DNA of 25,014 nt from a virus. How positions within the stretch are numbered: position 1 is the first letter of the stretch; every line of letters starts with the position of its first letter. The position numbers and the translations under genes were made by a program. Shown here in pieces: positions 3,734 through 25,014 of this stretch. The notes below the pieces were generated by a model that saw only the letters and a program-made list of their open reading frames with translations, was not told the origin of the DNA and did no database searches. Where the stretch lies: positions 1 to 25,014 of the IMG/VR virus record IMGVR_UViG_3300043570_003757. The stretch is one strand, 5' to 3'.

Positions 3734-3967
3734 ATGACTGAGACCAACGAAGCACAGACCAACGAAGCACAGACCAACGAAGCACAGACCAACGAAGCAC
3801 AGACCAACGAAGCACAGACCAACGAAGCACAGACCAACGACTTTCTTGCTTCTACGTGTGGTAATTGTGGAGCGGAATTAGTAGGCAATGTCCAGTCGCC
3901 CGATGAAAGCCTCTGTTGTGATTGCTACAGATACAATAATGATGATAATGATTACGTCGAAAACTGA
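3734..3967 (+). CDS. Small zinc-ribbon protein with N-terminal TNEAQ pentapeptide repeats
   Basis: The 77-aa product begins MTE and then carries six perfect TNEAQ repeats (residues 4-33) and a partial seventh. A four-cysteine zinc ribbon follows: CGNC at 42-45 and, after a 17-residue spacer, CCDC at 63-66. It ends in an Asn/Asp-rich acidic tail. AGGAG lies eight bases before the ATG. The repeat half should be a disordered, polar, acidic linker, and the ribbon may bind DNA, RNA or a protein. The repeats are identical at base level, which points to recent expansion by slippage. It lies between an unknown gene and the UvsW-like helicase, with a terminator after it. Function unknown; the zinc site is inferred from cysteine spacing only. 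Confidence 0.8.
   Translation: MTETNEAQTNEAQTNEAQTNEAQTNEAQTNEAQTNDFLASTCGNCGAELVGNVQSPDESLCCDCYRYNNDDNDYVEN
3743..3841 (+). repeat. Six perfect 15-bp tandem repeats plus a partial copy
   Basis: The unit ACCAACGAAGCACAG is repeated six times without a mismatch (3743-3832), followed by ACCAACGA. It is in frame inside the small zinc-ribbon gene and encodes TNEAQ. It has no spacers and is not a CRISPR. Confidence 0.97.
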
Positions 3968-10291: not shown

Positions 10292-13200
10292 ATGCCCAGT
10301 AACTGGCTTGTCTTCGACAGAATACGTGCTTTAACTAAATCAGCGAATGTCTTTAGAGCAGACAAGATTTTCCAGGATCAGTCTAACCTTGACAGGCTCA
10401 CAGCTGGCGGGGATTTTTTAGATTTTAGCAGCCAGGCGGCAATCCTTGATCAGACCAATCTTCAGATCAACCGTCTTGAACGGTATAAAGATTACGAGCA
10501 GATGGATCAGACTGGGGAAATTAGCTTAGCTTTAGATTTATATGCAGATGAAGCTTGCCTGACGGGCGACACGCATATACCATTGTTAGATGGAACATGC
10601 CCCACAATCGCAGAATTAGCAGAACGAGGCCAAGATTCGGAGTTCTGGGTATATTCATTTGACCAACAGACGGGGAAATATGTTCCAGCTTTGGCCAAGG
10701 GCGCTCGGATTACAGGCACGAACGTGCAGATTGTATGTGTGACTCTAGATGATGGTTCTAAGATTCGATGCACCGCAGACCATCTTTTCATGATGCGTGA
10801 TGGTACATTTGTGCAAGCATGCGATCTGAAGCATGATGATAGTCTTAAACCTTTATATAAGAAGCGTCGTTATAGAGCCAAAAACGGTAAAGCTCTATTT
10901 GAAGTAAAGCCATATTCGACAGCTACGGCATATGAATATTTCTTCAACGGAGAGCATTTCCAAAGTACTCATAGATGGGTGTATCATTCATTAAATGAAG
11001 ATTCGCCTGCCGTGGTACATCATGGGAATTTCAATAGCTTGGATAATACTCCAGCTAATTTAAAAGGGATGAATGTTTCTGAACATGATGCTATCCACCG
11101 GAAATATGGCAAATCCAATCATAGTTTTAAAAATATTGCCTGGGCGGATATAGTGAAAATAGCAGAATCATGGAGTGGTACAATAACTAGAGACAATATC
11201 TGTGCTGTTCTTGGTATTGGTGAGAGGGTACTTTACCGATTGCTAAGCGAGCAAGGCATAAGATGGGAACAATTTAGAGACAGATATAATCACTGTTCTC
11301 GTTGCAACAATCAAATCACAGGTGCTCGTCGAATATGTGTGCCATGTAGAAAAGCTTTTCTACATGATTATCATATAGAACATCAAAAAGACGTCACATA
11401 CAGAGAAAAAAGAAAAACACATAGAGCAAATAGTCCGCATATACCGGTCATTCAGAAGACTTGTAAAGCTTGTAAATTAAGCAAGAAATCTAACGAGTTT
11501 TTGCGGTCCGGATGCTCATTTAGTCCTTATTGCAATGATTGTAGGCCAATAACATGTGAAAGACGATACTTGGCAAAATCGTTTAATAACCATAAGGTGT
11601 TAAGCGTCGAATATGCGGGTGTGGTTGATAAAGTATATGACATTGAAGTTCCTAAATACCATTGTTTTGCCGCTGGGACAGATTCTTCTTGGGTCATTGT
11701 GCATAATAGTCTGGTCGATTCCGAGAAGAAGCATACGTTAATCATAAAAGCTAGGAACAAGCGGTTAAAGCATGAGCTAGAGGATCTATTCTACAATATA
11801 CTTAGATGGGATAATTTTTGCCGCCCCACAATGAGATACTTGTGCAAATACGGCGACGCTCCTTTTGAGATCATTTTAGATCAGAATCGTACATCAGTCG
11901 CCGCTCTTCGGTTTATGAATGTTTATAATTTTACGCGGATAGAGACCAGGTATGGTGATCTGATTGGTTTCTTTTACATGGACGCATTGTTTCCAAAGCC
12001 CGTGTTTTTGCATCCTTGGCAGGTAATGCACCTTAGGCTCACTAGCTTTGAAAACATTTATCATCCTTATGGTAGAGCAATCCTTGATGGTGGCAGGAAA
12101 GCGTTTAAGCAGTTGCGGTTAATGGAAGATGCTGCTCTCATTTATCGTATAACACGTGCCCCCGAGAAAAGGAAGTTCACTATACCTGTTGGAAATATTC
12201 CGGCTAAAGAGGTGCCGGAATACATGCAGATGGTAGCGAGAACGTTTAAGCGACAGAGGTTTTATAATCCTTCTACTGGGTCGTTTGATGAGCGTTATTC
12301 GCCGTTGATTCAAGAAGATGATTTTTTCTTGCCTAGGCGCACAGATGGGTCTGGTCCTGATATTGATATTCTGCCTGGCGCTGAGAATCTTGATCAAATT
12401 AAGGATATTGAATACTTTAAAAAGAAAATGATCGCCCCGATGAAGATACCATTCAATAGAGTGGGAATCGGCGATGGGGCTGGTGAGGCGAATGAGAAGA
12501 CGCTATCTCAGTCTAGCAGCGAATTTGCTAAAGCTGTTCAATGGGTACAGCGTGAGGGGGTCAATGGACTGACTAAAGTGGCTATTGTCCATTTGGCTTT
12601 GCGTGGTTATGGAGTAGAGGATTTGAAGGGTTTCGAGATTTCTTTTACCGCCAATTCTGCGTTGGAAGAGCTTTATCGAATTGAGACTTGGCAGACTCGT
12701 GTTAGCGTCATGAGTGATTTAAAGGATCTTGGATGGTTCCCTAAAGAGTGGATTGTGACGCATTTTACTGATCTTTCTCCTGATGAGATTGAGGAGATTA
12801 AAGAGTTAGAGGATGCAGAGGTAGAAGGTGGCGGTGGAATGGGCGGCGGCGGCGGCGGTGGTGGAATGGGCGGGATGCCCGATTTTGATCTTGGTGGAGA
12901 AGAGGGCGGGCCTGAAGGTGGTATGCCTCCATTAGATCTTGGGGCAGAGGGTGGTGCCGCGCCTGCTGGCGGTGAGGTTGGAGGTGAGGTTGGAGGAGAA
13001 GGAGCAGGTGGAGAGGGTGCTGGTGATGCTGGGGAAGCAGTTGATGCTGGTTTAGGGGCTCCAGCTGAAGGTTATGATATCAGTGCTGATAGGCGGTTAA
13101 TATTGGAGATTAGAAAGAGAGAGCTTAAGAGCAGGAAGCGTAAGGTTATGGCGTCTATCGCCGAACGACTTCATAGGGACTATTTTAAGGATGTTCCGTC

Positions 13201-13471
13201 TTATACTAATGGCTATGAGTATTTTATGGCCAGCAAGGAATTTGATGGCTTATCGAAGCGCCCTTCTAAAAATGATAAAATATTCAATGATGATGGTTCT
13301 CTGGCTATTAAAGATCCGTCTAAGGATGATCAGTGCTTGGTGGAATGGACTGTTGATCCTAAAGAGCGTCTTGAAGCTATCAGAGAGAATTACAATCTAT
13401 TGATTAGCGATTCAGTTGTGGTCGAGGAGAAAGTTGCTGAAATAACTGACAGGGACCTTCCTCGACGTTGA
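10292..13471 (+). CDS. Portal protein (gp20-like) interrupted by an intein
   Basis: The portal is the dodecameric ring at one head vertex that starts capsid assembly and through which DNA is packed. The precursor has 1059 residues: N-extein 1-88, intein 89-472, C-extein 473-1059. The joined portal would be 675 aa against 524 in T4. Recognition rests on EISLALDLYADEA at 76-88, and on ILPGAENLDQIKDIEYFKKK followed by MIAPMKIPFNRV in the C-extein, which parallels the T4 gp20 LPGGQNLGEIQDVEYFRKK region. A Gly-rich low-complexity segment (about 846-925) sits after the conserved core and before a basic helical stretch (LILEIRKRELKSRKRK). GGAGAAGGA precedes the ATG. The portal should be functional only after protein splicing. 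Confidence 0.93.
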   Translation: MPSNWLVFDRIRALTKSANVFRADKIFQDQSNLDRLTAGGDFLDFSSQAAILDQTNLQINRLERYKDYEQMDQTGEISLALDLYADEACLTGDTHIPLLDGTCPTIAELAERGQDSEFWVYSFDQQTGKYVPALAKGARITGTNVQIVCVTLDDGSKIRCTADHLFMMRDGTFVQACDLKHDDSLKPLYKKRRYRAKNGKALFEVKPYSTATAYEYFFNGEHFQSTHRWVYHSLNEDSPAVVHHGNFNSLDNTPANLKGMNVSEHDAIHRKYGKSNHSFKNIAWADIVKIAESWSGTITRDNICAVLGIGERVLYRLLSEQGIRWEQFRDRYNHCSRCNNQITGARRICVPCRKAFLHDYHIEHQKDVTYREKRKTHRANSPHIPVIQKTCKACKLSKKSNEFLRSGCSFSPYCNDCRPITCERRYLAKSFNNHKVLSVEYAGVVDKVYDIEVPKYHCFAAGTDSSWVIVHNSLVDSEKKHTLIIKARNKRLKHELEDLFYNILRWDNFCRPTMRYLCKYGDAPFEIILDQNRTSVAALRFMNVYNFTRIETRYGDLIGFFYMDALFPKPVFLHPWQVMHLRLTSFENIYHPYGRAILDGGRKAFKQLRLMEDAALIYRITRAPEKRKFTIPVGNIPAKEVPEYMQMVARTFKRQRFYNPSTGSFDERYSPLIQEDDFFLPRRTDGSGPDIDILPGAENLDQIKDIEYFKKKMIAPMKIPFNRVGIGDGAGEANEKTLSQSSSEFAKAVQWVQREGVNGLTKVAIVHLALRGYGVEDLKGFEISFTANSALEELYRIETWQTRVSVMSDLKDLGWFPKEWIVTHFTDLSPDEIEEIKELEDAEVEGGGGMGGGGGGGGMGGMPDFDLGGEEGGPEGGMPPLDLGAEGGAAPAGGEVGGEVGGEGAGGEGAGDAGEAVDAGLGAPAEGYDISADRRLILEIRKRELKSRKRKVMASIAERLHRDYFKDVPSYTNGYEYFMASKEFDGLSKRPSKNDKIFNDDGSLAIKDPSKDDQCLVEWTVDPKERLEAIRENYNLLISDSVVVEEKVAEITDRDLPRR
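10556..11707 (+). mobile_element. Intein with an HNH homing endonuclease, inserted in the portal
   Basis: The 384-residue element splices out of the portal at ADEA^C and HN^S. Splicing blocks seen (precursor numbering): A, CLTGDTHIPLLDG from C89; B, KIRCTADHLFMMRDG with T161 and H164; F, VDKVYDIEVPKYHCFAAG at 445-462; G, VIVHN at 468-472 followed by S473 as the +1 nucleophile. An HNH nuclease domain lies at about 226-270 (THRWVYH; VVHHGNFNSLDNTPANL, with paired His 243/244 and N252, N256). Two cysteine clusters follow (C335, C338, C349, C352; and C391, C394, C414, C417), probably zinc fingers that help bind the target DNA. The domain would drive homing into intein-free portal genes. All splicing residues look intact, so it is probably active. 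Confidence 0.93.
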
Positions 13472-18410: not shown

Positions 18411-19997
18411 ATGTTACCACGTTCATCAGCTCGCCAAGGCCGACACATCACAGAAGGCCGACGCCCAGCAGCCGCCCAAAACGACCTGCACCGTCAATCA
18501 GTCATCCACGAAGGCAAAAAGAATCAGCTCGTCGGCAAATGGTCCGCCGTTCTGAACAAATGCCAAGAAGTACCGAAGGCCAAATTCGGTCTCATGGCCT
18601 CCATTCTGGAAAACCAGTTCAATGCCTGGAACCCAGAAAAGCGCTCCATGATCCTGGAAGACCAAACCACCACAGCGAACATCGCCGACTTCACACGGTT
18701 TGCCCTCCCACTCATCCGCAAGTCATACCCCAAGCTGATCGCCGACAACCTGGTCGGTGTCCAGCCAATGAGCCAGCCAGCCTCGCTCATCTTCTACATC
18801 CGCTATCGCTACGCCCTCTCCAAGGGTGGCACGGTCGCTGGCACACAAATCATGCGCCAAAACACGGCCCAAGCTTACGCCCGTAACAACGGCTGGGCAC
18901 TGGACCCATACTACTCCTCACAACAAGTCGTCGGCGAAGCCCTCACAATGGCTCCAGACCGAACGCAATTCTCAGGCGTCCTCGCCCACCGTCCAGTCCT
19001 CGCCGGTACTGTCTCAGTAGAAGTCTACTACAACGCCACCGATTCTAACCCAAGCTGCAACGACGCCAAGCCAGCCTTCCGAGTCACCTTCGACTCAAAC
19101 GGTGCGCCTGACGTTGCGCTCTACGACGGTGACCCAAGCGACCTAGTAACCGACGCACTCGTCCTCGACGAAGCCTCCACCAAGTTCGACCACACGACCG
19201 GCCAAGTTGCAGTTCGTTGGAAGGGCGGCGGATGGGCAGCAGACGCCTACGCAGTCGTCAACTACGAGTACGACCTCGAATCCAACCCATTCCAACCAGA
19301 AGTCACCCTCAGCATCGACAGTGATTCGGTCTCCGCAATCACCCGCAAGCTGAAGACCTCCTGGAGCCTCGAAGCCGCTCAAGACCTCAAGTCAGTCCAC
19401 AACATTGACGCTGAGAGCACCTTGACCGACCTCATGGCCGACGAAATGGTTGCCGAAATCGACCGGGAAATCATCAATGACTTGATCATTGCCAGCTCGA
19501 TCCGCGCAGACCACAACTTCGCAACAGCCGCAGGTGCCTCGGTTAACTTCACCGACCGTAACATCGCCCTGATGTACAAGTCACTCGAAGTTGCCAACAT
19601 CATCCACCGGACCACACTCCGTGGCCCAGCCAACTGGATGGTCATGAGCGCCGACATCAGCTCCAAGTTCGAACAACTTAATGACTTCCGCGCCAGCGAC
19701 GCCTTCAACACAGAAGGTGTGGATATCGGAATCATGAACGTTGGAACGATCCAAGGCAAGATGCGCCTCTACAAGGACCCATTGTTCCCGAACTGCAAAA
19801 TCCTGATGGGCTTCAAGGGATCAAGCGTTCTGGATGCTGGTTACTTCTACGCACCATACATCCCACTGTTGAGCACCCCAACGGTACTCGACCCCAACAG
19901 CTACTCCCCATCGAAGGGCATCATGTGCCGCTACGGGAAGAAGCTGATCGAAGATGGTGGCCTGTACTATGCGACAATTAACGTTAGTAATCTCTAA
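18411..19997 (+). CDS. Major capsid protein (gp23-like)
   Basis: This 528-aa protein builds the head shell hexamers (T4 gp23, 521 aa). Clear parallels are KLIADNLVGVQPMSQP at 108-123 (T4 NLIAFDICGVQPMNSP), SLEAAQDLKSVHNIDAE in the second half (T4 SIELAQDLRAVHGMDAD) followed by MVAEIDREIINDL, and DAGYFYAPYIPL near the end (T4 DAGIYYAPYVAL). The N-terminal 83 residues contain four Ile-x-Glu sites (E15, E34, E67, E83). By analogy with T4 cleavage at E65, removal after E83 is the likely maturation step. ACGGAG precedes the ATG. Codon choice is strongly biased (TTC, AAG, ATC, GCC, ACC, TAC), as in a very highly expressed gene. A 14-bp hairpin terminator follows. Confidence 0.96.
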   Translation: MLPRSSARQGRHITEGRRPAAAQNDLHRQSVIHEGKKNQLVGKWSAVLNKCQEVPKAKFGLMASILENQFNAWNPEKRSMILEDQTTTANIADFTRFALPLIRKSYPKLIADNLVGVQPMSQPASLIFYIRYRYALSKGGTVAGTQIMRQNTAQAYARNNGWALDPYYSSQQVVGEALTMAPDRTQFSGVLAHRPVLAGTVSVEVYYNATDSNPSCNDAKPAFRVTFDSNGAPDVALYDGDPSDLVTDALVLDEASTKFDHTTGQVAVRWKGGGWAADAYAVVNYEYDLESNPFQPEVTLSIDSDSVSAITRKLKTSWSLEAAQDLKSVHNIDAESTLTDLMADEMVAEIDREIINDLIIASSIRADHNFATAAGASVNFTDRNIALMYKSLEVANIIHRTTLRGPANWMVMSADISSKFEQLNDFRASDAFNTEGVDIGIMNVGTIQGKMRLYKDPLFPNCKILMGFKGSSVLDAGYFYAPYIPLLSTPTVLDPNSYSPSKGIMCRYGKKLIEDGGLYYATINVSNL

Positions 19998-20034: not shown

Positions 20035-20070
20035 ACAATACCCAAATCGAAAGATTTGGGTATTGTCGTT
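20035..20070 (+). terminator. Strong stem-loop terminator after the capsid gene
   Basis: A perfect 14-bp stem (20035-20048 with 20053-20066) closes a GAAA tetraloop and is followed by CGTTTCT. The GAAA loop and long stem make it the most stable hairpin in the window. It should also protect the 3' end of the capsid mRNA. Confidence 0.85.
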
Positions 20071-20137: not shown

Positions 20138-20821
20138 ATGCCTACTCTGAAGAGACCTGATACTTGCCGATGCGGTTCCTCACGAATGTTGAGAGAAAAA
20201 GCCCCCGAAAGATGGGTCTGTGTGGATTGTAAAACAGTTGTGGTTTCTCGAAAGCCTTTGATAGATAGGAATCTTTGTAGGAGCTGTGGTGTGTCTCGTC
20301 TGGACTCTGAATTTAAAGAAGATTGTAATATATGCAAAAAATGCGCAAAAGACTATACCAATGTTTATTATAGCAAAAATAACGCCAGGCTGTTAAAATA
20401 CAAGAAAGAATATTATAAAGATAATAGGGAGAAAATTAGAAAGCATTCAAATGACTATTGGCAATCTTCTATGGACATATTTTTGAATTATGTTTATCGA
20501 AGATGCAAAGGCACAGCTAAACAAAGATTAGGAGCAAGAAGGAGAGATGTGGAATTTGAAGTCTCTTTTTCATACATCAGAAGACTTTATGAATTAAATC
20601 AAGGTAGATGTGCTATTAGCGGGCTAACAATGGCACATAAGTGGTCGGATTTGATGGCTCTGTCGATAGACCGTATTGATTCTAAGCGCGGATATATTGA
20701 GGGCAATGTGCAATTAGTATGCATGTGGGCTAATTTAGCCAAGCAGAAGTTCACCAATGATGATATGAAGAAGGTATTGGATATGTATTACGACCTTCGC
20801 AAGAGTCAGGAGAGCATATAA
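20138..20821 (+). CDS. HNH endonuclease with zinc-binding N-terminus, probably homing type
   Basis: The 227-aa protein has cysteine pairs at C10/C12 with C28/C31 and at C47/C50 with C63/C66/C69 (two probable zinc ribbons). A basic helical linker follows (80-110, KKEYYKDNREKIRKHSN). The nuclease core lies at about 156-205: GRCAISGL, SIDRIDS at 176-182, GYIEGNVQLVC at 185-195, N199. This is the phage HNH variant in which DRID stands where many HNH proteins have DH. GAAGGA lies six bases before the ATG. Such free-standing nucleases in T4-like phages cut homologous phage DNA near conserved genes and spread by repair; here the neighbour is the capsid gene. Its AT-rich codon use contrasts with the capsid gene and suggests separate origin. 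Its stop overlaps the next start by one base. Confidence 0.85.
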   Translation: MPTLKRPDTCRCGSSRMLREKAPERWVCVDCKTVVVSRKPLIDRNLCRSCGVSRLDSEFKEDCNICKKCAKDYTNVYYSKNNARLLKYKKEYYKDNREKIRKHSNDYWQSSMDIFLNYVYRRCKGTAKQRLGARRRDVEFEVSFSYIRRLYELNQGRCAISGLTMAHKWSDLMALSIDRIDSKRGYIEGNVQLVCMWANLAKQKFTNDDMKKVLDMYYDLRKSQESI

Positions 20822-21327
20822 TGCCTGCGCCAGTTCCAGTTCATGAGCGGTTCAGTGATGAGATTAAGCAGCTGACGATTAAACTGTTTAATGAGGGCTG
20901 GACACATGCAGAGATTGGTGAGTATTATTATGAGCCGGAGCGTACTATAGCTAAATTGTGCAAGCATCTTGGGCTTAAGCGGTCTCGTAGTGAGGCTAGT
21001 GCTCTTAAGATGAGGAGTAAGCTTGATAATGAGGAGACTGTTAGGTATATTAGGGAGAATAGGGACAGGCATTCTGTTGGTGAGTTGGCGTTGATGTTTA
21101 ATTCGTCTGTTGCGTCTGTTCAGCGTCTTTGTGTGAAGTATGGTATTGTTTTTGATGGTGGTGTGTTGAGGGAGCGTTTGAATTCTAAGTTGGTGGGTGC
21201 TTGGTCTGAGGAGATGCGTTTTGAGGCTAGTGTTAGGGCTAGGAATGTGTCGGATGAGGTTCGTATGAGGATTTCTGAGCGTTCTCGTAAGGCTAGACTT
21301 GCTAAGAATGGAGCGTGTGATGAGTGA
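20821..21327 (+). CDS. DNA-binding protein with two helix-turn-helix motifs
   Basis: The start codon shares its A with the TAA of the HNH gene (TAATG), so translation is probably coupled. In 168 aa there are two similar helix-turn-helix units, 27-52 (GWTHAEIGEYYYEPERTIAK) and 84-109 (HSVGELALMFNSSVASVQRL). A Ser/Arg-rich C-terminus follows (123-160, WSEEMRFEASVRARNVSDEV) that recalls the NUMOD-type modular DNA-binding segments of homing endonucleases. No nuclease motif is present. It could be the DNA-recognition half of a two-gene homing endonuclease, or a small regulator. Third codon positions are strongly G/T-rich. Confidence 0.8.
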   Translation: MPAPVPVHERFSDEIKQLTIKLFNEGWTHAEIGEYYYEPERTIAKLCKHLGLKRSRSEASALKMRSKLDNEETVRYIRENRDRHSVGELALMFNSSVASVQRLCVKYGIVFDGGVLRERLNSKLVGAWSEEMRFEASVRARNVSDEVRMRISERSRKARLAKNGACDE

Positions 21328-21335
21328 CAAGATCG
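21301..21335 (+). repeat. Gene-start junction repeat, copy 1
   Basis: This 35-base stretch matches 21675-21709 at 33 of 35 positions. It contains GGAG, then ATGAGTGACAAGATCG, the start of the next gene. A shorter relative lies at 23786-23801. Confidence 0.9.
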
Positions 21336-21679
21336 ATGGAGTGCCGATGACGTCACTTGAATTTATTGACTCTGAATTGCTTAGAATACGGAATTATGAG
21401 AATGATTTTGATGGGGAAGATTCAATTGCTCCACCTGCTGAGATTGTGGATTCGGCGTCGCGCTTTTTCGCCCAATTTAAGAGTGGGCTGATACCGGCTC
21501 CTCATAGAGTCTCAGCGACTGTGAATCAGACGGTATTGTTCGAATGGTATTTCCCTTGGTTTTATCACTCTTTCGAGTTTGTTTCGCCGTCTAAGGCCGA
21601 AGCGACGTGGATACCTAAAGATGCGACAGAAGCGGTGACCCACAAGATCATACTAACCCAATTTGATAAGGCTTGCTAA
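21320..21679 (+). CDS. Unknown 119-aa protein
   Basis: The best start is ATG 21320, six bases after GGAG; it overlaps the previous stop by 8 bases. The N-terminus is MSDKIDGVPMTSLEFIDSEL. The rest (APPAEIVDSASRFFAQFKSG, then PAPHRVSATVNQTVLFEWYF) follows a pattern I associate with small bacterial and phage proteins of unknown function that have a Pro-rich turn and a conserved Glu-Trp. I cannot name the family. The last 13 codons (HKIILTQFDKAC and its stop) recur as a fragment around 23753-23789, so this gene or a relative was once duplicated. Confidence 0.72.
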   Translation: MSDKIDGVPMTSLEFIDSELLRIRNYENDFDGEDSIAPPAEIVDSASRFFAQFKSGLIPAPHRVSATVNQTVLFEWYFPWFYHSFEFVSPSKAEATWIPKDATEAVTHKIILTQFDKAC

Positions 21680-21690
21680 TAATGGAGCAT
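21639..21690 (+). repeat. Left border repeat of gene slot 1
   Basis: The 52 bases covering the end of the upstream gene and the start of the next recur at 23750-23801 with two mismatches (50 of 52 identical). See the paired entry for what lies between the borders. Confidence 0.95.
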
Positions 21691-21693
21691 GTG

Positions 21694-22059
21694 ATGAGTG
21701 ACAAGATCGTTGTGGGGGCCAAGACGCCGCTTGATTTTATTGACTCTCTGCCAAATGGCGAGGCTAAAATTGCTGCGATGGTGGTCTACCAGATGTGTAG
21801 AATTTTTGATATAGCTAACGGCACGATCAGGCCAACGGCACGAGAAGTCGATAAACTTAACAAAAGCGAGTTCAATGTATATTGGGTCAAACGCGACCTT
21901 GAAACGGGACAGCTACTAAAGTACAGCGACGGATATGTTGAAACATTTAGTACTCTCAGTGTCATGAGCAATACTTTTTATCCGCACCAACCGCATTCTA
22001 GCCGTTTTCGGTACGAATTATATCTTGGCGACAAACCGTGCGCGTCTGATGCAGTATAA
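21694..22059 (+). CDS. Unknown 121-aa protein, cargo of gene slot 1
   Basis: ATG 21694 is six bases after GGAG; earlier in-frame starts (21673 TTG, 21682 ATG) lack such a site. The N-terminus MSDKIVVGAKTPLDFIDSLP copies the pattern of the preceding gene (MSDKIDGVPMTSLEFIDSEL), then the proteins diverge. The rest is a mixed alpha/beta sequence (YWVKRDLETGQLLKYSDGYV) with no known motif. It ends within the 22-base right border repeat. Function unknown. Confidence 0.72.
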   Translation: MSDKIVVGAKTPLDFIDSLPNGEAKIAAMVVYQMCRIFDIANGTIRPTAREVDKLNKSEFNVYWVKRDLETGQLLKYSDGYVETFSTLSVMSNTFYPHQPHSSRFRYELYLGDKPCASDAV

Positions 22060-22077
22060 CAGGAGTGACTGATGTCT
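22056..22077 (+). repeat. Right border repeat of gene slot 1 (RBS-start sequence)
   Basis: 22 bases, including ACAGGAGTGACTGATGTCT, are identical to 24138-24159. The repeat contains AGGAG and the ATG of the following gene, so it is a mobile or copied ribosome-binding and start unit. Confidence 0.95.
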
Positions 22078-22272
22078 AATGATATTGATGAGGTACGGCC
22101 TGTTGTGTGGTGTAGGAAGATTCATAAGACGGGTGAGTATGAGAAGAGTTCTAGTGGTCATATTGCTGTGTGGACATCAGGTAGTGCTAAAGCCTTTCTG
22201 ATTAATAGTTCTATTCCGATGTGGTACATTGAATTGGGGAAGTTCGAGAAGTATACGGGGAAGCAGAAATGA
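22072..22272 (+). CDS. Unknown 66-aa protein
   Basis: AGGAG seven bases upstream fixes the start. The small basic protein (VVWCRKIHKTGEYEKSSSGH, then WYIELGKFEKYTGKQK) looks like a compact beta-rich fold. Its first codons share GATATTGATGAGGT with the next gene, giving MSNDIDEV here and MSDIKDIDEV there. Its stop overlaps the next start (ATGA). Function unknown. Confidence 0.72.
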   Translation: MSNDIDEVRPVVWCRKIHKTGEYEKSSSGHIAVWTSGSAKAFLINSSIPMWYIELGKFEKYTGKQK

Positions 22273-22511
22273 GCGATATCAAGGATATTGATGAGGTTTG
22301 TCTTACTTTTGGCAAGTATAGAGGTATGACACCGGCTGATGTGTCGATTAAAGATCCGCATTATATTGTGTGGATGTATCATACTGTGAAACCAGTCCCG
22401 TGCAGCCATGAATTGATGCTGGAATGCCAAGAAGAGGCGGAGAATATAGAGTTGGCGATGTACTATGAGGCTGAGCAATATGATATTGAAAACTATGGGG
22501 ATAGGGACTAA
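22269..22511 (+). CDS. Small protein with an ExoX-C-like domain
   Basis: The 80-aa protein has LTFGKYRGMTPADVSIKDPH followed by YIVWMYHT (residues 12-39). This matches the pattern (GKY.G.....I...DP.Y..W) of the C-terminal domain found on ExoX-like exonucleases and as a stand-alone domain in phages. No exonuclease domain is attached. The C-terminus is very acidic. It overlaps the previous gene by four bases. The domain may bind nucleic acid or a partner protein, but its role here is unknown. Confidence 0.75.
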   Translation: MSDIKDIDEVCLTFGKYRGMTPADVSIKDPHYIVWMYHTVKPVPCSHELMLECQEEAENIELAMYYEAEQYDIENYGDRD

Positions 22512-22514
22512 ACA

Positions 22515-23087
22515 ATGGCTAGAGGCTTTTATAGCTTGGTGCAATATTGCCCGGATCGCTTTCGTGGCGAGACGGTGAACGTGGGCTTGATTTTGGCGTG
22601 TGAGAACCCGCTCGCGATGAAAGTGCGTATGGCTAGGGAATTTTCGCGTTTGCGTGCGTTTTTTGCGTTGAGCGAATTGGATATTGATAATCTCAGGTGT
22701 ATGTTGGAAGGCTTGGAAAGTCGCATTGTGTCATGCGTCGAGGGTTTTCAAACGATGGAAGATTTGGGGGCTTTCGCTTTGACACTAGCCAACGACTTGC
22801 GGTTGACAGAGCCGCGATTATCCAAGATTGAAACTATCGAAGCGGACTTTGAGAGCCTTTTTGCCGATCTTGTTGAAACGCAAGGCAAGCCAGCCATGGA
22901 TAAGGGATTATATTTTCTTAATCCTGATTTGGTGGATGATCCAAAGTATAAAGCTATTTTAGAGCGTTCTACCGAGAAATTGGGATTAATGGAAATCTAT
23001 ACCCTAATTGAAATGGAATCTATACTTAGGGATCAAATGGAATCTAAACTTAGGGATCTTGCCTACTTCTATATGGCTGGTAAATGA
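22515..23087 (+). CDS. DUF3037 family protein
   Basis: The N-terminus FYSLVQYCPDRFRGETVNVG followed by LIL (5-27) is the hallmark of DUF3037 (Y.L..Y.P...R.E.VNVG). The 190-aa length is somewhat longer than a minimal member. In bacteria this family is, as I recall, often encoded beside a HipA-like kinase; no such kinase is in this window. Near the C-terminus an eight-residue unit (MESILRDQ / MESKLRDL) is duplicated. The start lies 3 bases after the previous stop. The next gene overlaps its stop by four bases (ATGA). Molecular function is not known. Confidence 0.85.
   Translation: MARGFYSLVQYCPDRFRGETVNVGLILACENPLAMKVRMAREFSRLRAFFALSELDIDNLRCMLEGLESRIVSCVEGFQTMEDLGAFALTLANDLRLTEPRLSKIETIEADFESLFADLVETQGKPAMDKGLYFLNPDLVDDPKYKAILERSTEKLGLMEIYTLIEMESILRDQMESKLRDLAYFYMAGK
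23011..23058 (+). repeat. 24-bp tandem duplication inside the DUF3037 gene
   Basis: 23011-23034 and 23035-23058 are adjacent copies that differ at one base (T/A), in frame, adding eight residues to a C-terminal helix. A recent slippage event is likely. Confidence 0.93.
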
Positions 23088-23359
23088 CATATTTTACTTT
23101 ATACTCCCAGGAGGATGCGTGGGTGTTCCTCATAACCCGGCTTATGCAATTAGGCTTAGAGTATAATGCACTGCTGGTGTTTGATATATGTAGTTGGATA
23201 CAGCACTATTCGGAGGTATTCGTTCAAGACATTCAGACACTTATGTTGTTAGATATATTTCGGGTTGTGGTGTTTATGGGTTGGATCAGGTTTGTTGAGA
23301 TTGGTATACCTTATACGAATTTGAGATGTGTTCATAATTATAGGTCCAAGATTCCCTAA
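23084..23359 (+). CDS. Unknown hydrophobic 91-aa protein
   Basis: The ATG overlaps the DUF3037 stop (ATGA), so it is probably translated by coupling; there is no good Shine-Dalgarno sequence. The protein is rich in aliphatic and aromatic residues (AWVFLITRLMQLGLEYNALL; LMLLDIFRVVVFMGWIRFVE). One segment around 55-75 could be membrane-associated, but charged residues interrupt it and an amphipathic helical bundle is as likely. Function unknown. Confidence 0.62.
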   Translation: MTYFTLYSQEDAWVFLITRLMQLGLEYNALLVFDICSWIQHYSEVFVQDIQTLMLLDIFRVVVFMGWIRFVEIGIPYTNLRCVHNYRSKIP

Positions 23360-23416
23360 AAATTCTATAGTCTTGAAATTAACTGACAAAAAATTCTGCT
23401 TCTTGGAGAAAGCCAA

Positions 23417-23674
23417 ATGCCAAAATATAAGAGCTATCTGAGTGGTCCTGATCAAATTGGAAGGCTTAATGATGAATTTCAGATATTAAGGGCAATTAGA
23501 GGTGTTTTAGAGTTGAATTCTAAGGTGATGGAAGACCTTAAGACTGGCAAGATAAATACTGACTCTGTAAAGAAGTTTTTGCTAGTTCAGGTGATGATGG
23601 TTCTTGACGGCAAGGCTAATCCTGCGCTGGTGCGGCAGTTGATAGTGCTTCAGGATTTTAAAAACAACTGGTAA
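23417..23674 (+). CDS. Unknown 85-aa helical protein
   Basis: GGAGA about nine bases upstream supports the start after a 57-base spacer. The protein is helical throughout (ILRAIRGVLELNSKVMEDLK; SVKKFLLVQVMMVLDGKANP), without cysteines or known motifs, and could be a small adaptor. The DNA after its stop breaks down into gene fragments and short repeats. Function unknown. Confidence 0.72.
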   Translation: MPKYKSYLSGPDQIGRLNDEFQILRAIRGVLELNSKVMEDLKTGKINTDSVKKFLLVQVMMVLDGKANPALVRQLIVLQDFKNNW

Positions 23675-23698
23675 TTGAGAGCGGAGGAATTGTATTGT

Positions 23699-23767
23699 AT
23701 GATCTGGACAACAATTGACGGCGCTCACAATCGGCGCTCACAATCGGCGCCCACAAGATCATACTAA
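23699..23767 (+). pseudogene. Short gene fragment (22 codons) with a ribosome-binding site
   Basis: GGAGG lies 11 bases before an ATG that opens MIWTTIDGAHNRRSQSAPTR and stops two residues later. The frame runs into the 13-bp repeats and then, out of frame, into the copied end of the 119-aa protein gene. It looks like a gene cut short by the rearrangement that made this junction. Confidence 0.45.
23719..23757 (+). repeat. 13-bp tandem repeat at the rearrangement junction
   Basis: CGGCGCTCACAAT occurs twice in a row (23719-23731, 23732-23744) and a third, diverged copy CGGCGCCCACAAG (23745-23757) passes into the 52-base border repeat. Microhomology at CCACAAG suggests how the junction formed. 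Confidence 0.88.
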
Positions 23768-23801
23768 CCCGATTTGATGAGGCTTGCTAATAATGGAGCA
23801 T
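23750..23801 (+). repeat. Left border repeat of gene slot 2, with a gene fragment
   Basis: 50 of 52 bases match 21639-21690. It includes a fragment reading HKIILTRFDEAC and a stop, the copied C-terminus of the 119-aa protein (HKIILTQFDKAC), with no gene body before it. Confidence 0.95.
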
Positions 23802-23825
23802 ACAAGCAAAGGTCTGGGTGAATCT

Positions 23826-24161
23826 ATGAAAATCCTGTTTTCAGGTGAATGGCATTATCCGTCGGGCGGATCCCGCGATTTCGTTATGCTTGGTACAGAG
23901 CAAGAGTGTTTGGACAAGTATCAACACATGGCTATGAATACATTGGGAGGCGTAGATGTCTGGCCACGGCAATGTTGTGACTGGGGCGAAATCGTTGATC
24001 ACACTACAATGAAACAAGAGATATTTTTATCGTTTCGTCGTCATAACTTCAGCGGTAAAACTGGGATAATCGAAGTACAAAAAATGATCGATGGAAAAAT
24101 GGTGGACGGTAGTTTACTGTCCATATCGTTGACCGCGATAACAGGAGTGACTGATGTCTGA
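23826..24161 (+). CDS. Unknown 111-aa protein, cargo of gene slot 2
   Basis: The natural N-terminus appears to be MKILFSGEWHYPSGGSRDFV at ATG 23826. An in-frame ATG at 23793 lies in the border repeat and would add 11 residues. The protein has mixed structure with several Trp, Cys and Gly residues (NTLGGVDVWPRQCCDWGEIV) and no recognised motif. It is unrelated to the slot 1 protein despite the shared borders. Its last residues (ITGVTDV) are read from the right border repeat in frame, so its original C-terminus may have been lost. Confidence 0.68.
   Translation: MKILFSGEWHYPSGGSRDFVMLGTEQECLDKYQHMAMNTLGGVDVWPRQCCDWGEIVDHTTMKQEIFLSFRRHNFSGKTGIIEVQKMIDGKMVDGSLLSISLTAITGVTDV
24138..24159 (+). repeat. 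Right border repeat of gene slot 2
   Basis: 22 bases identical to 22056-22077, again carrying AGGAG and ATGTCT, but here the ATG opens only a 13-codon frame. Confidence 0.95.
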
Positions 24162-24195
24162 CATGTTGGGGTGTACAGGCAACCCTAAAACCTAA
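24154..24195 (+). pseudogene. 13-codon gene-start remnant
   Basis: From the ATG in the right border repeat the frame reads MSDMLGCTGNPKT and stops. It has the best ribosome-binding site of the area but no gene body, so it is probably what is left of a gene that once followed slot 2. Confidence 0.45.
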
Positions 24196-24218: not shown

Positions 24219-24392
24219 ATGACTATCGCTGAGCTAATCGAAAAGCTCTTACAATTAGAACAAAGCGCCACGGTTTCTTTACGGTACGAATTTGAGACCA
24301 TCCATGAAGAACTGGCTCTCTCCGTATGGTATGATACCCTTGAGAACGTCGTATACATCGACGCTGTGCCAGATGAGCTATATGCACCCTGA
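24219..24392 (+). CDS. Unknown 57-aa protein
   Basis: AAGGAGA six to seven bases before the ATG is a very good ribosome-binding site. The product begins MTIAELIEKLLQLEQSATVS and ends DAVPDELYAP. An N-terminal helix is followed by beta-like segments (LALSVWYD, NVVYIDAV), and the whole is acidic. About 100 bases with no gene follow (24393-24492), apart from short GAGGAG-led frames of fewer than 15 codons. Function unknown. Confidence 0.68.
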   Translation: MTIAELIEKLLQLEQSATVSLRYEFETIHEELALSVWYDTLENVVYIDAVPDELYAP

Positions 24393-24492
24393 CACAACAT
24401 TTCATTTTGAGGAGCAGTGGATATTGACGCCGACTTGATTGCTTGCCATTAATGACTGGTTAGAGTCACACAATCAAGAAGAGGAGTCACTA

Positions 24493-25014
24493 GTGTACAT
24501 TGAACAGGCGAAAATCGCTAGCCAGCACAGATGCTTCAAAAAGGGTAAAAAATTCAGATTCAGAGACATAACGGTCATAGTCGGTGATCAGGGCTGTGGT
24601 AAATCAACATTATTGAAGGGGTTACAAGCCCAGGCTAAATTTTTAGATCTGCAGCTAACTCCTCTTGGTTTAAAGGGAGTGAATTCATTTTATTTTGATT
24701 CAGAGCATATGAATCCCAGGACCACTGATCCGACGCTTTACTCTAAGGCTAACGGTGAGGATATTGGTATTGGCTATGTCGGGTCAATCATGTCTAGATT
24801 TAAGTCTCATGGTGAGGTTTTAAAAATGTATACGGTTGACTGTCTCAAAAAGGTGAAGGATAGTGTGATCTTGTTGGATGAGCCTGAGGCCGGTTTATCG
24901 TTAAGAAATCAGTTTAAAGTCTGGGATGAGGTCACAAGGGCTAGTGAAAACAAGTGTCAGATAATAATAGCGACTCATTCGCTTGTTATTATTCAGGCCG
25001 CTGAGGATGTATTG
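24493..25014 (+). CDS. ABC/AAA-type ATPase, 5' part (runs off the window)
   Basis: The frame opens with GTG 24493, seven bases after GAGGAG, and stays open for 174 codons to the window end. Walker A is GDQGCGKSTL at about 31-40. Walker B is VILLDEPEAGLS at about 125-136, with the D-E pair and a D-loop-like AGLS. A switch histidine lies in IIIATHSLVI at about 157-166. This is the fold of predicted ATPases related to SMC/ABC and OLD proteins. Residues 60-115 are an inserted stretch (YFDSEHMNPRTTDP). The missing C-terminus would show whether a nuclease (TOPRIM) or other domain is attached. It may act in DNA repair, in exclusion of other phages, or in signalling. Confidence 0.88.
   Translation, partial: MYIEQAKIASQHRCFKKGKKFRFRDITVIVGDQGCGKSTLLKGLQAQAKFLDLQLTPLGLKGVNSFYFDSEHMNPRTTDPTLYSKANGEDIGIGYVGSIMSRFKSHGEVLKMYTVDCLKKVKDSVILLDEPEAGLSLRNQFKVWDEVTRASENKCQIIIATHSLVIIQAAEDVL

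Follow-up and report, generated by a model that had tools for sequence, protein, structure and literature searches.

Accessory genes joined near start codons behind gp23 in an uncultured T4-like phage

The origin of mosaic phage genomes that are built from intact genes is an old question, and most joints are too old for reading. In the DNA analyzed here, the 25,014-nt stretch of the IMG/VR record IMGVR_UViG_3300043570_003757 that is called the window throughout, four related lineages keep the joints legible, with occupied, empty, and re-used slots beside three alternative endonuclease genes. The window comes from an uncultured T4-like phage, as indicated by Pfam matches to gp23, to a gp20 portal protein with an intein, and to a T4-type terminase, and the studied array of small genes lies 1.6-4.2 kb downstream of gp23. 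An earlier note on this DNA had described two gene slots with the same borders and unrelated cargo, and had proposed that accessory genes are swapped as units by recombination at the repeated gene junctions. The locus thus raises the question of whether these borders are exchange sites or came along with the genes.

We scanned IMG/VR with the borders, gp23, and genes A, C, E, and F. This yielded contigs of the same strain (G003 and G005) and three related lineages, namely G004 (231 kb), G001 together with L011, and G006 (65 kb). The comparison therefore covers four independent lineages, all of which are metagenome contigs. In the phage GenBank collection, B and C had no protein match, and the array had almost no DNA match. 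The genes of the region are as follows.

18411-19997, plus strand: gp23, T4-like major capsid protein (Pfam Gp23, E 3e-76; 2539 phage records match)
20035-20066, no strand assigned: terminator-like hairpin with a 14-bp stem, 3' of gp23 (RNA folding)
20138-20821, plus strand: HNH-1, HNH/endonuclease-VII-like, a homing-endonuclease candidate (PHROG 3322 endonuclease, 4e-22; PHROG 1035)
20821-21327, plus strand: gene a, 168 aa, putative HTH-like DNA-binding protein (weak matches to PHROG 323, E 3e-4, and PHROG 664, E 1e-3), overlapping at its 3' end with the beginning of gene A
21320-21679, plus strand: gene A, 119 aa from MSDKI; homologues in G004, G001, L011, and G006
21694-22059, plus strand: gene B, cargo of slot 1, 121 aa; 97% amino acid identity in G004
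22072-22272, plus strand: gene D, 66 aa; lost in G004 and G006
22269-22511, plus strand: gene E, 80 aa, ExoX-like C-terminal domain (Pfam PF20600, E 2e-7)
22515-23087, plus strand: gene F, DUF3037; in place of the relatives' gene K
23084-23359, plus strand: gene G, 91 aa; seen in this strain only
23417-23674, plus strand: gene H, 85 aa, GatB_Yqey-domain match
23793-24161, plus strand: gene C, cargo of slot 2, 122 aa with MEH as the start or 111 aa with the inner ATG (MKIL)
24219-24392, plus strand: gene I, conserved, right neighbor of slot 2
24493-25014, plus strand: AAA ATPase (AAA_15/AAA_21), truncated by the window end; 98% nucleotide identity in G006

The order behind gp23 is HNH-a-A-B-D-E-F-G-H-C-I in the window. 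It is HNH-a-A-B-[reverse-strand block]-E-K-H-X142-I in G004, HNH2-a-A-D-E-K-M in G001, and LAGLIDADG-A-[reverse block as in G004]-E-K-H-I-M in G006. The reverse-strand block between A/B and E in two of the relatives measures about 3.9 kb (L026 13675-17550, L093 13904-17780), and its genes, judged by eye from their translations, look like those for a glycosyltransferase, an acetyltransferase, and a methyltransferase.

The repeats at the junctions are located as follows.

21295-21373, plus strand: repeat of gene-start DNA where a meets A (84% to 21669-21747)
21639-21690, plus strand: left border, copy 1, with the final 13 codons and stop of A, a ribosome site, and the B start
22056-22077, plus strand: right border, copy 1, with the B stop, a ribosome site, and the D start codon
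23750-23801, plus strand: left border, copy 2, putatively an imported copy of an A/B junction (52/52 to G004, 50/52 to the window)
24138-24159, plus strand: right border, copy 2, putatively an imported D ribosome site and start codon, through which C reads

The 52-bp left border (50/52 positions, 96%) and the 22-bp right border (22/22, 100%) recur within the window just as the earlier note had described, far beyond the chance expectation of about 1e-18 and 6e-5 pairs, respectively; when the window was resampled 100 times with a Markov-1 model, exact repeats reached 18 at most. The 79-bp repeat at the a/A junction was absent from that note. As it lies at both the a/A and the A/B junction, genes A and B have in common a ribosome site, a start, and about 18 codons, after which they diverge abruptly. 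The claim that the cargo genes are unrelated also held: BLASTP detected no similarity between B (121 aa) and C (111 or 122 aa; E = 7), and thus none of the homology that the note had named as an argument for ordinary tandem duplication. Of the genes A, B, C, and X142, C alone matches a PHROG family convincingly (PHROG 1411, a family of unknown function, E 2e-6, residues 12-73). The AlphaFold models of B and C, with mean confidences of 48 and 39, were too poor for a fold comparison.

At the borders themselves, RNA folding gave no stable hairpins (z about -0.8 to 0.4), and a T4 late promoter scan gave no signal. Promoter-like sites were no more frequent there than in shuffles under a model that leaves T4-type early promoters outside, and no inverted repeats that pair the slot edges were found. 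In the 231-kb relative, self-comparison and a motif scan brought out the a/A/B starts as the sole clear short gene-start repeat; almost all remaining repeats were tandem or inside repetitive genes.

Slot 1 is occupied by B in the window and in G004 and is cleanly empty in G001 and L011, in which A is joined to D at a shared TGATG. The D start of G001 sits exactly at the position of the B start of the window (AATATTGGAGTATGTGATG/TCTAATGG versus AATAATGGAGCATGTGATG/AGTGACAAG and ATAACAGGAGTGACTGATG/TCTAATGATATTG), which identifies B as a unit that extends from start codon to start codon. The other joints are of the same kind. The switch between E/F and E/K occurs exactly at the ATG (TAAACAATG/), and for gene M, too, homology sets in exactly at the ATG in comparisons of G001 with G004, G006, or the sister contig of the window. 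In G004 and G006, D is gone except for its start, which has been joined to E within GATATTGATGAGGT. The E-type start recurs in gene H of these two relatives, which begins with MSDIKDID versus MPKYKSY in the window, and gene A of G006 has a B-type start. These hybrid starts reveal crossovers inside shared gene starts, and the starts shared by A/B, D/E, and E/H behave like crossover sites.

The impression that joints prefer gene starts is borne out by counting. Over all pairs of the four lineages, 43 of 72 homology endpoints lay within 20 nt of a start codon, compared with 6.5 expected and a maximum of 23 in 5000 circular shifts, although not all of these endpoints are independent, as they were scored on each genome. 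The window's start at 24154 was taken as 24157 in this count, which is unaffected by the difference. Tests on single genomes, in which no joint is scored more than once because it recurs in another genome, placed 8/14, 10/16, 5/9, and 8/16 endpoints near starts (p from 1e-3 to 4e-9). Because the genes abut, many endpoints are also near a stop codon, and starts and stops cannot be fully separated as endpoint sites; moreover, the clustering at starts can also reflect selection against broken genes rather than the exchange mechanism. The comparison shows that joints fall mostly at ribosome sites and start codons, that several neighboring genes have start DNA in common, and that crossovers inside shared starts have led to hybrid genes and gene losses.

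The fragments in slot 2 are:

23699-23767, plus strand: 22-codon stub, consisting of X142 codons 1-8 followed by a 13-bp tandem duplication and the junction scar
24154-24195, plus strand: 13-codon start remnant, related to the H-I intergenic DNA of G006

Between H and I, G004 has an intact X142 (142 aa), and G006 has no gene but only a short remnant. In the window, the first eight codons of X142 are followed by the 13-bp tandem duplication, the 52-bp A/B-junction copy, C, which reads through a D-type ribosome site and start, and the 13-codon remnant. Stub and remnant are both present as previously described, but the peptide HKIILT.FD.AC, which had been taken as a copied C-terminus, is not translated in slot 2, as the stub reads this DNA in another frame. 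Over all 52 positions, the left-border copy in slot 2 matches the A/B junction of G004, and it has two mismatches to that of the window itself. Gene C was found in this strain only within IMG/VR, and slot 2 of G004 and G006, both of which lack C, contains neither the 52-bp nor the 22-bp border. As slot 2 without C is borderless, its borders are probably not docking sites; in the simplest reading of the sequences, they would be flanks of slot 1 that arrived as passengers with C.

What remains of the swapping proposal is that accessory genes are gained, lost, and replaced as units at junctions with a ribosome site and a start codon, whereas the idea that the same borders define both slots is not supported. 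Cargo does differ between strains. The right border (final 20 bases as query) matched only same-strain contigs in IMG/VR. The 15-base core of the left border matched 17 viral contigs, only five of which had wider similarity to the window, and we took the other matches as chance. A simple crossover over 7 bp (ACAAGAT) was considered for the left joint of slot 2, which falls inside a gene, and was dropped because it would not yield the sequence seen there, GGCG-CCCACAAGAT; the joint instead lies within a small tandem duplication.

The genes between gp23 and the array show another kind of exchange. HNH-1 is 99.9% identical in nucleotides between the window and G004 (one change in 684 nt) despite different gp23 genes, and the identity of the two phages climbs to 98-100% at the gp23 3' end. 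The gp23-adjacent site holds HNH-2 (48% amino acid identity to HNH-1) instead of HNH-1 in G001/L011 and a LAGLIDADG gene in G006 and contig L023, which likewise have different gp23 genes and rise in identity in the gp23 3' end. Here, a gene of a homing-type endonuclease family adjoins a conserved gene, and the comparative pattern is that of allele transfer and flank co-conversion across diverged backbones. The free-standing Seg endonuclease genes of T4 undergo intronless homing with allele replacement and co-conversion of flanks (PMC2993671); the likeness to them is one of sequence pattern, and the identity tracts in gp23 are the trace expected from such homing (PMC2993671). The site is therefore a candidate for natural intronless homing outside the classic T-even phages. 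An endonuclease relative was found within 1.5 kb of gp23 in 42 of the 69 gp23 relatives with enough downstream sequence and was not seen in the other 27, with same-strain contigs counted separately and some matches being partial. Three alternative endonuclease genes at one gp23-adjacent site are distributed over two gp23 backbones (L093 11810-13513; L024 11701-12384; L023 after 11584).

Taking these data together, we think it probable that start-codon-bounded genes are exchanged behind gp23 and that the borders of slot 2 are passengers. Gene C would formerly have been located between A and D in a relative; as no contig with the donor order A-C-D was found in the IMG/VR searches, we infer this step. 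Through a short-homology or template-switch event, a segment that comprised C together with the end of A on one side and the D ribosome site and start on the other would then have entered X142, the gene between H and I. Less certainly, double-strand breaks by the free-standing endonucleases next to gp23 may have made this region a hotspot of exchange among co-infecting phages. The gp23-linked endonucleases as a driver of cassette turnover are plausible but unproven, with the 27 gp23 relatives that showed none nearby speaking against it, and the locus offers a concrete, testable case that links homing endonucleases to accessory-gene turnover in T4-like phages. We find it distinctly improbable that there is a dedicated cassette-exchange locus in which shared starts are kept as homologous crossover handles and gene bodies are exchanged, powered by the endonucleases, behind resident starts.

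It is possible, though in our view doubtful, that random illegitimate recombination and selection suffice, with off-junction recombinants dying and with shared starts and endonucleases having no causal role. This is the standard view of phage mosaicism (PMC3029335), and the intragenic left joint of slot 2 beside its small tandem scar would suit it, whereas the hybrid starts D/E, E/H, and A/B share about 14-30 bp or more at the joint and endonuclease alleles were exchanged with a co-conversion-like tract. Homologous recombination at 52-bp and 22-bp docking sites on each side of both slots could explain why different cargo is flanked by both borders, and crossovers were indeed seen at shared starts elsewhere in the array; with slot 2 of G004 and G006 devoid of either border and the right border limited to the same strain, we consider this explanation unlikely. 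It is highly unlikely that one gene was duplicated in tandem along with its junctions and that the gene bodies then diverged fast. B and C have no similarity, PHROG 1411 matches only C, and junctions of 84-96% identity next to bodies with none form an edge too sharp for gradual divergence, even though the cargos are similar in size and A and B have their start DNA and 18 similar codons in common.

Since all data are metagenome contigs, an assembly chimera at the repeats was also weighed. We give it almost no credence, as G003 and, in its left part, G005, with other sample codes in IMG/VR, show the same order, and the 52- and 22-bp repeats are shorter than an ordinary read. Equally remote is the movement of genes by promoter/terminator cassettes like the PeSL of T4, which an array of accessory genes in a T4-type phage might suggest, but for which the borders lack stable hairpins and an excess of promoter-like sites. 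PeSL, reportedly described by Arbiol and colleagues in 2010, is said to be short repeated intergenic DNA tied to accessory-gene shuffling in T4-type phages; no promoter plus stem-loop was detected in the repeats here. With no promoter, stem-loop, or inverted repeat at the borders, PeSL, integron-like, and transposon readings are unsupported, and the borderless slot 2 without C and the lack of inverted repeats at the slot edges do not resemble an integron or a transposon. In lambdoid phages, conserved boundary sequences are common to different phages at fixed positions, whereas the repeats here occur within one genome too; the array nevertheless recalls the idea of homologous recombination at short inter-module junctions. 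This idea of lambdoid boundary sequences is cited in PMC3029335.

Phage mosaicism is generally pictured as exchange at gene boundaries, and a very close precedent exists. Compared with Brujita, mycobacteriophage Island3 has an extra gene of unknown function, 68, the last 18 residues of which duplicate the C-terminus encoded by the gene before it, and its gain or loss was explained by repeats of about 50 bp at the joints (PMC3029335). Here, too, closely related phages lack the gene (B in G001/L011, C in G004/G006), and the joint repeat of 52 bp includes the final 13 codons of A, with the caveat that the gene residing upstream of slot 2 does not end in this 52-bp repeat. Unlike in Island3/Brujita, several genes are concerned, one slot has alternative cargo, borders moved to a second site, and endonuclease genes are neighbors. 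The Start Associated Sequences of Cluster K mycobacteriophages (PMC3203893), a 13-bp motif that precedes many genes all over the genome, likewise place repeats at the ribosome sites of genes that are not related to each other; here, however, the repeats extend into codons and, in the 231-kb relative, are confined to a/A and A/B. The array is thus a clear and unusually well resolved case of ordinary modular phage mosaicism and no new mobile system.

Some further aspects of the window were observed. At 24424, the window parts abruptly from its sister contig (G003; L021 16026 onward), to which it is nearly identical elsewhere; beyond this point, the window has the AAA ATPase and the sister contig the genes L73-L115-M, a recent rearrangement of the array within the strain. 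Two gp23 relatives, L146 and L147 (68% and 81% identity), lie in contigs binned as Lokiarchaeota MAGs (WJMJ01000154.1 and WJKO01000042.1). The intein is inside the portal gp20 gene at 10292-13471 (Pfam Intein_splicing, residues 96-472). A ribonucleotide reductase gene at 471-2696 has a match to the B12-dependent insertion domain PF21995, and a small ORF at 3734-3967 contains a 15-bp tandem repeat with TNEAQ units, the copies of which are mostly identical, so that its length is possibly variable.
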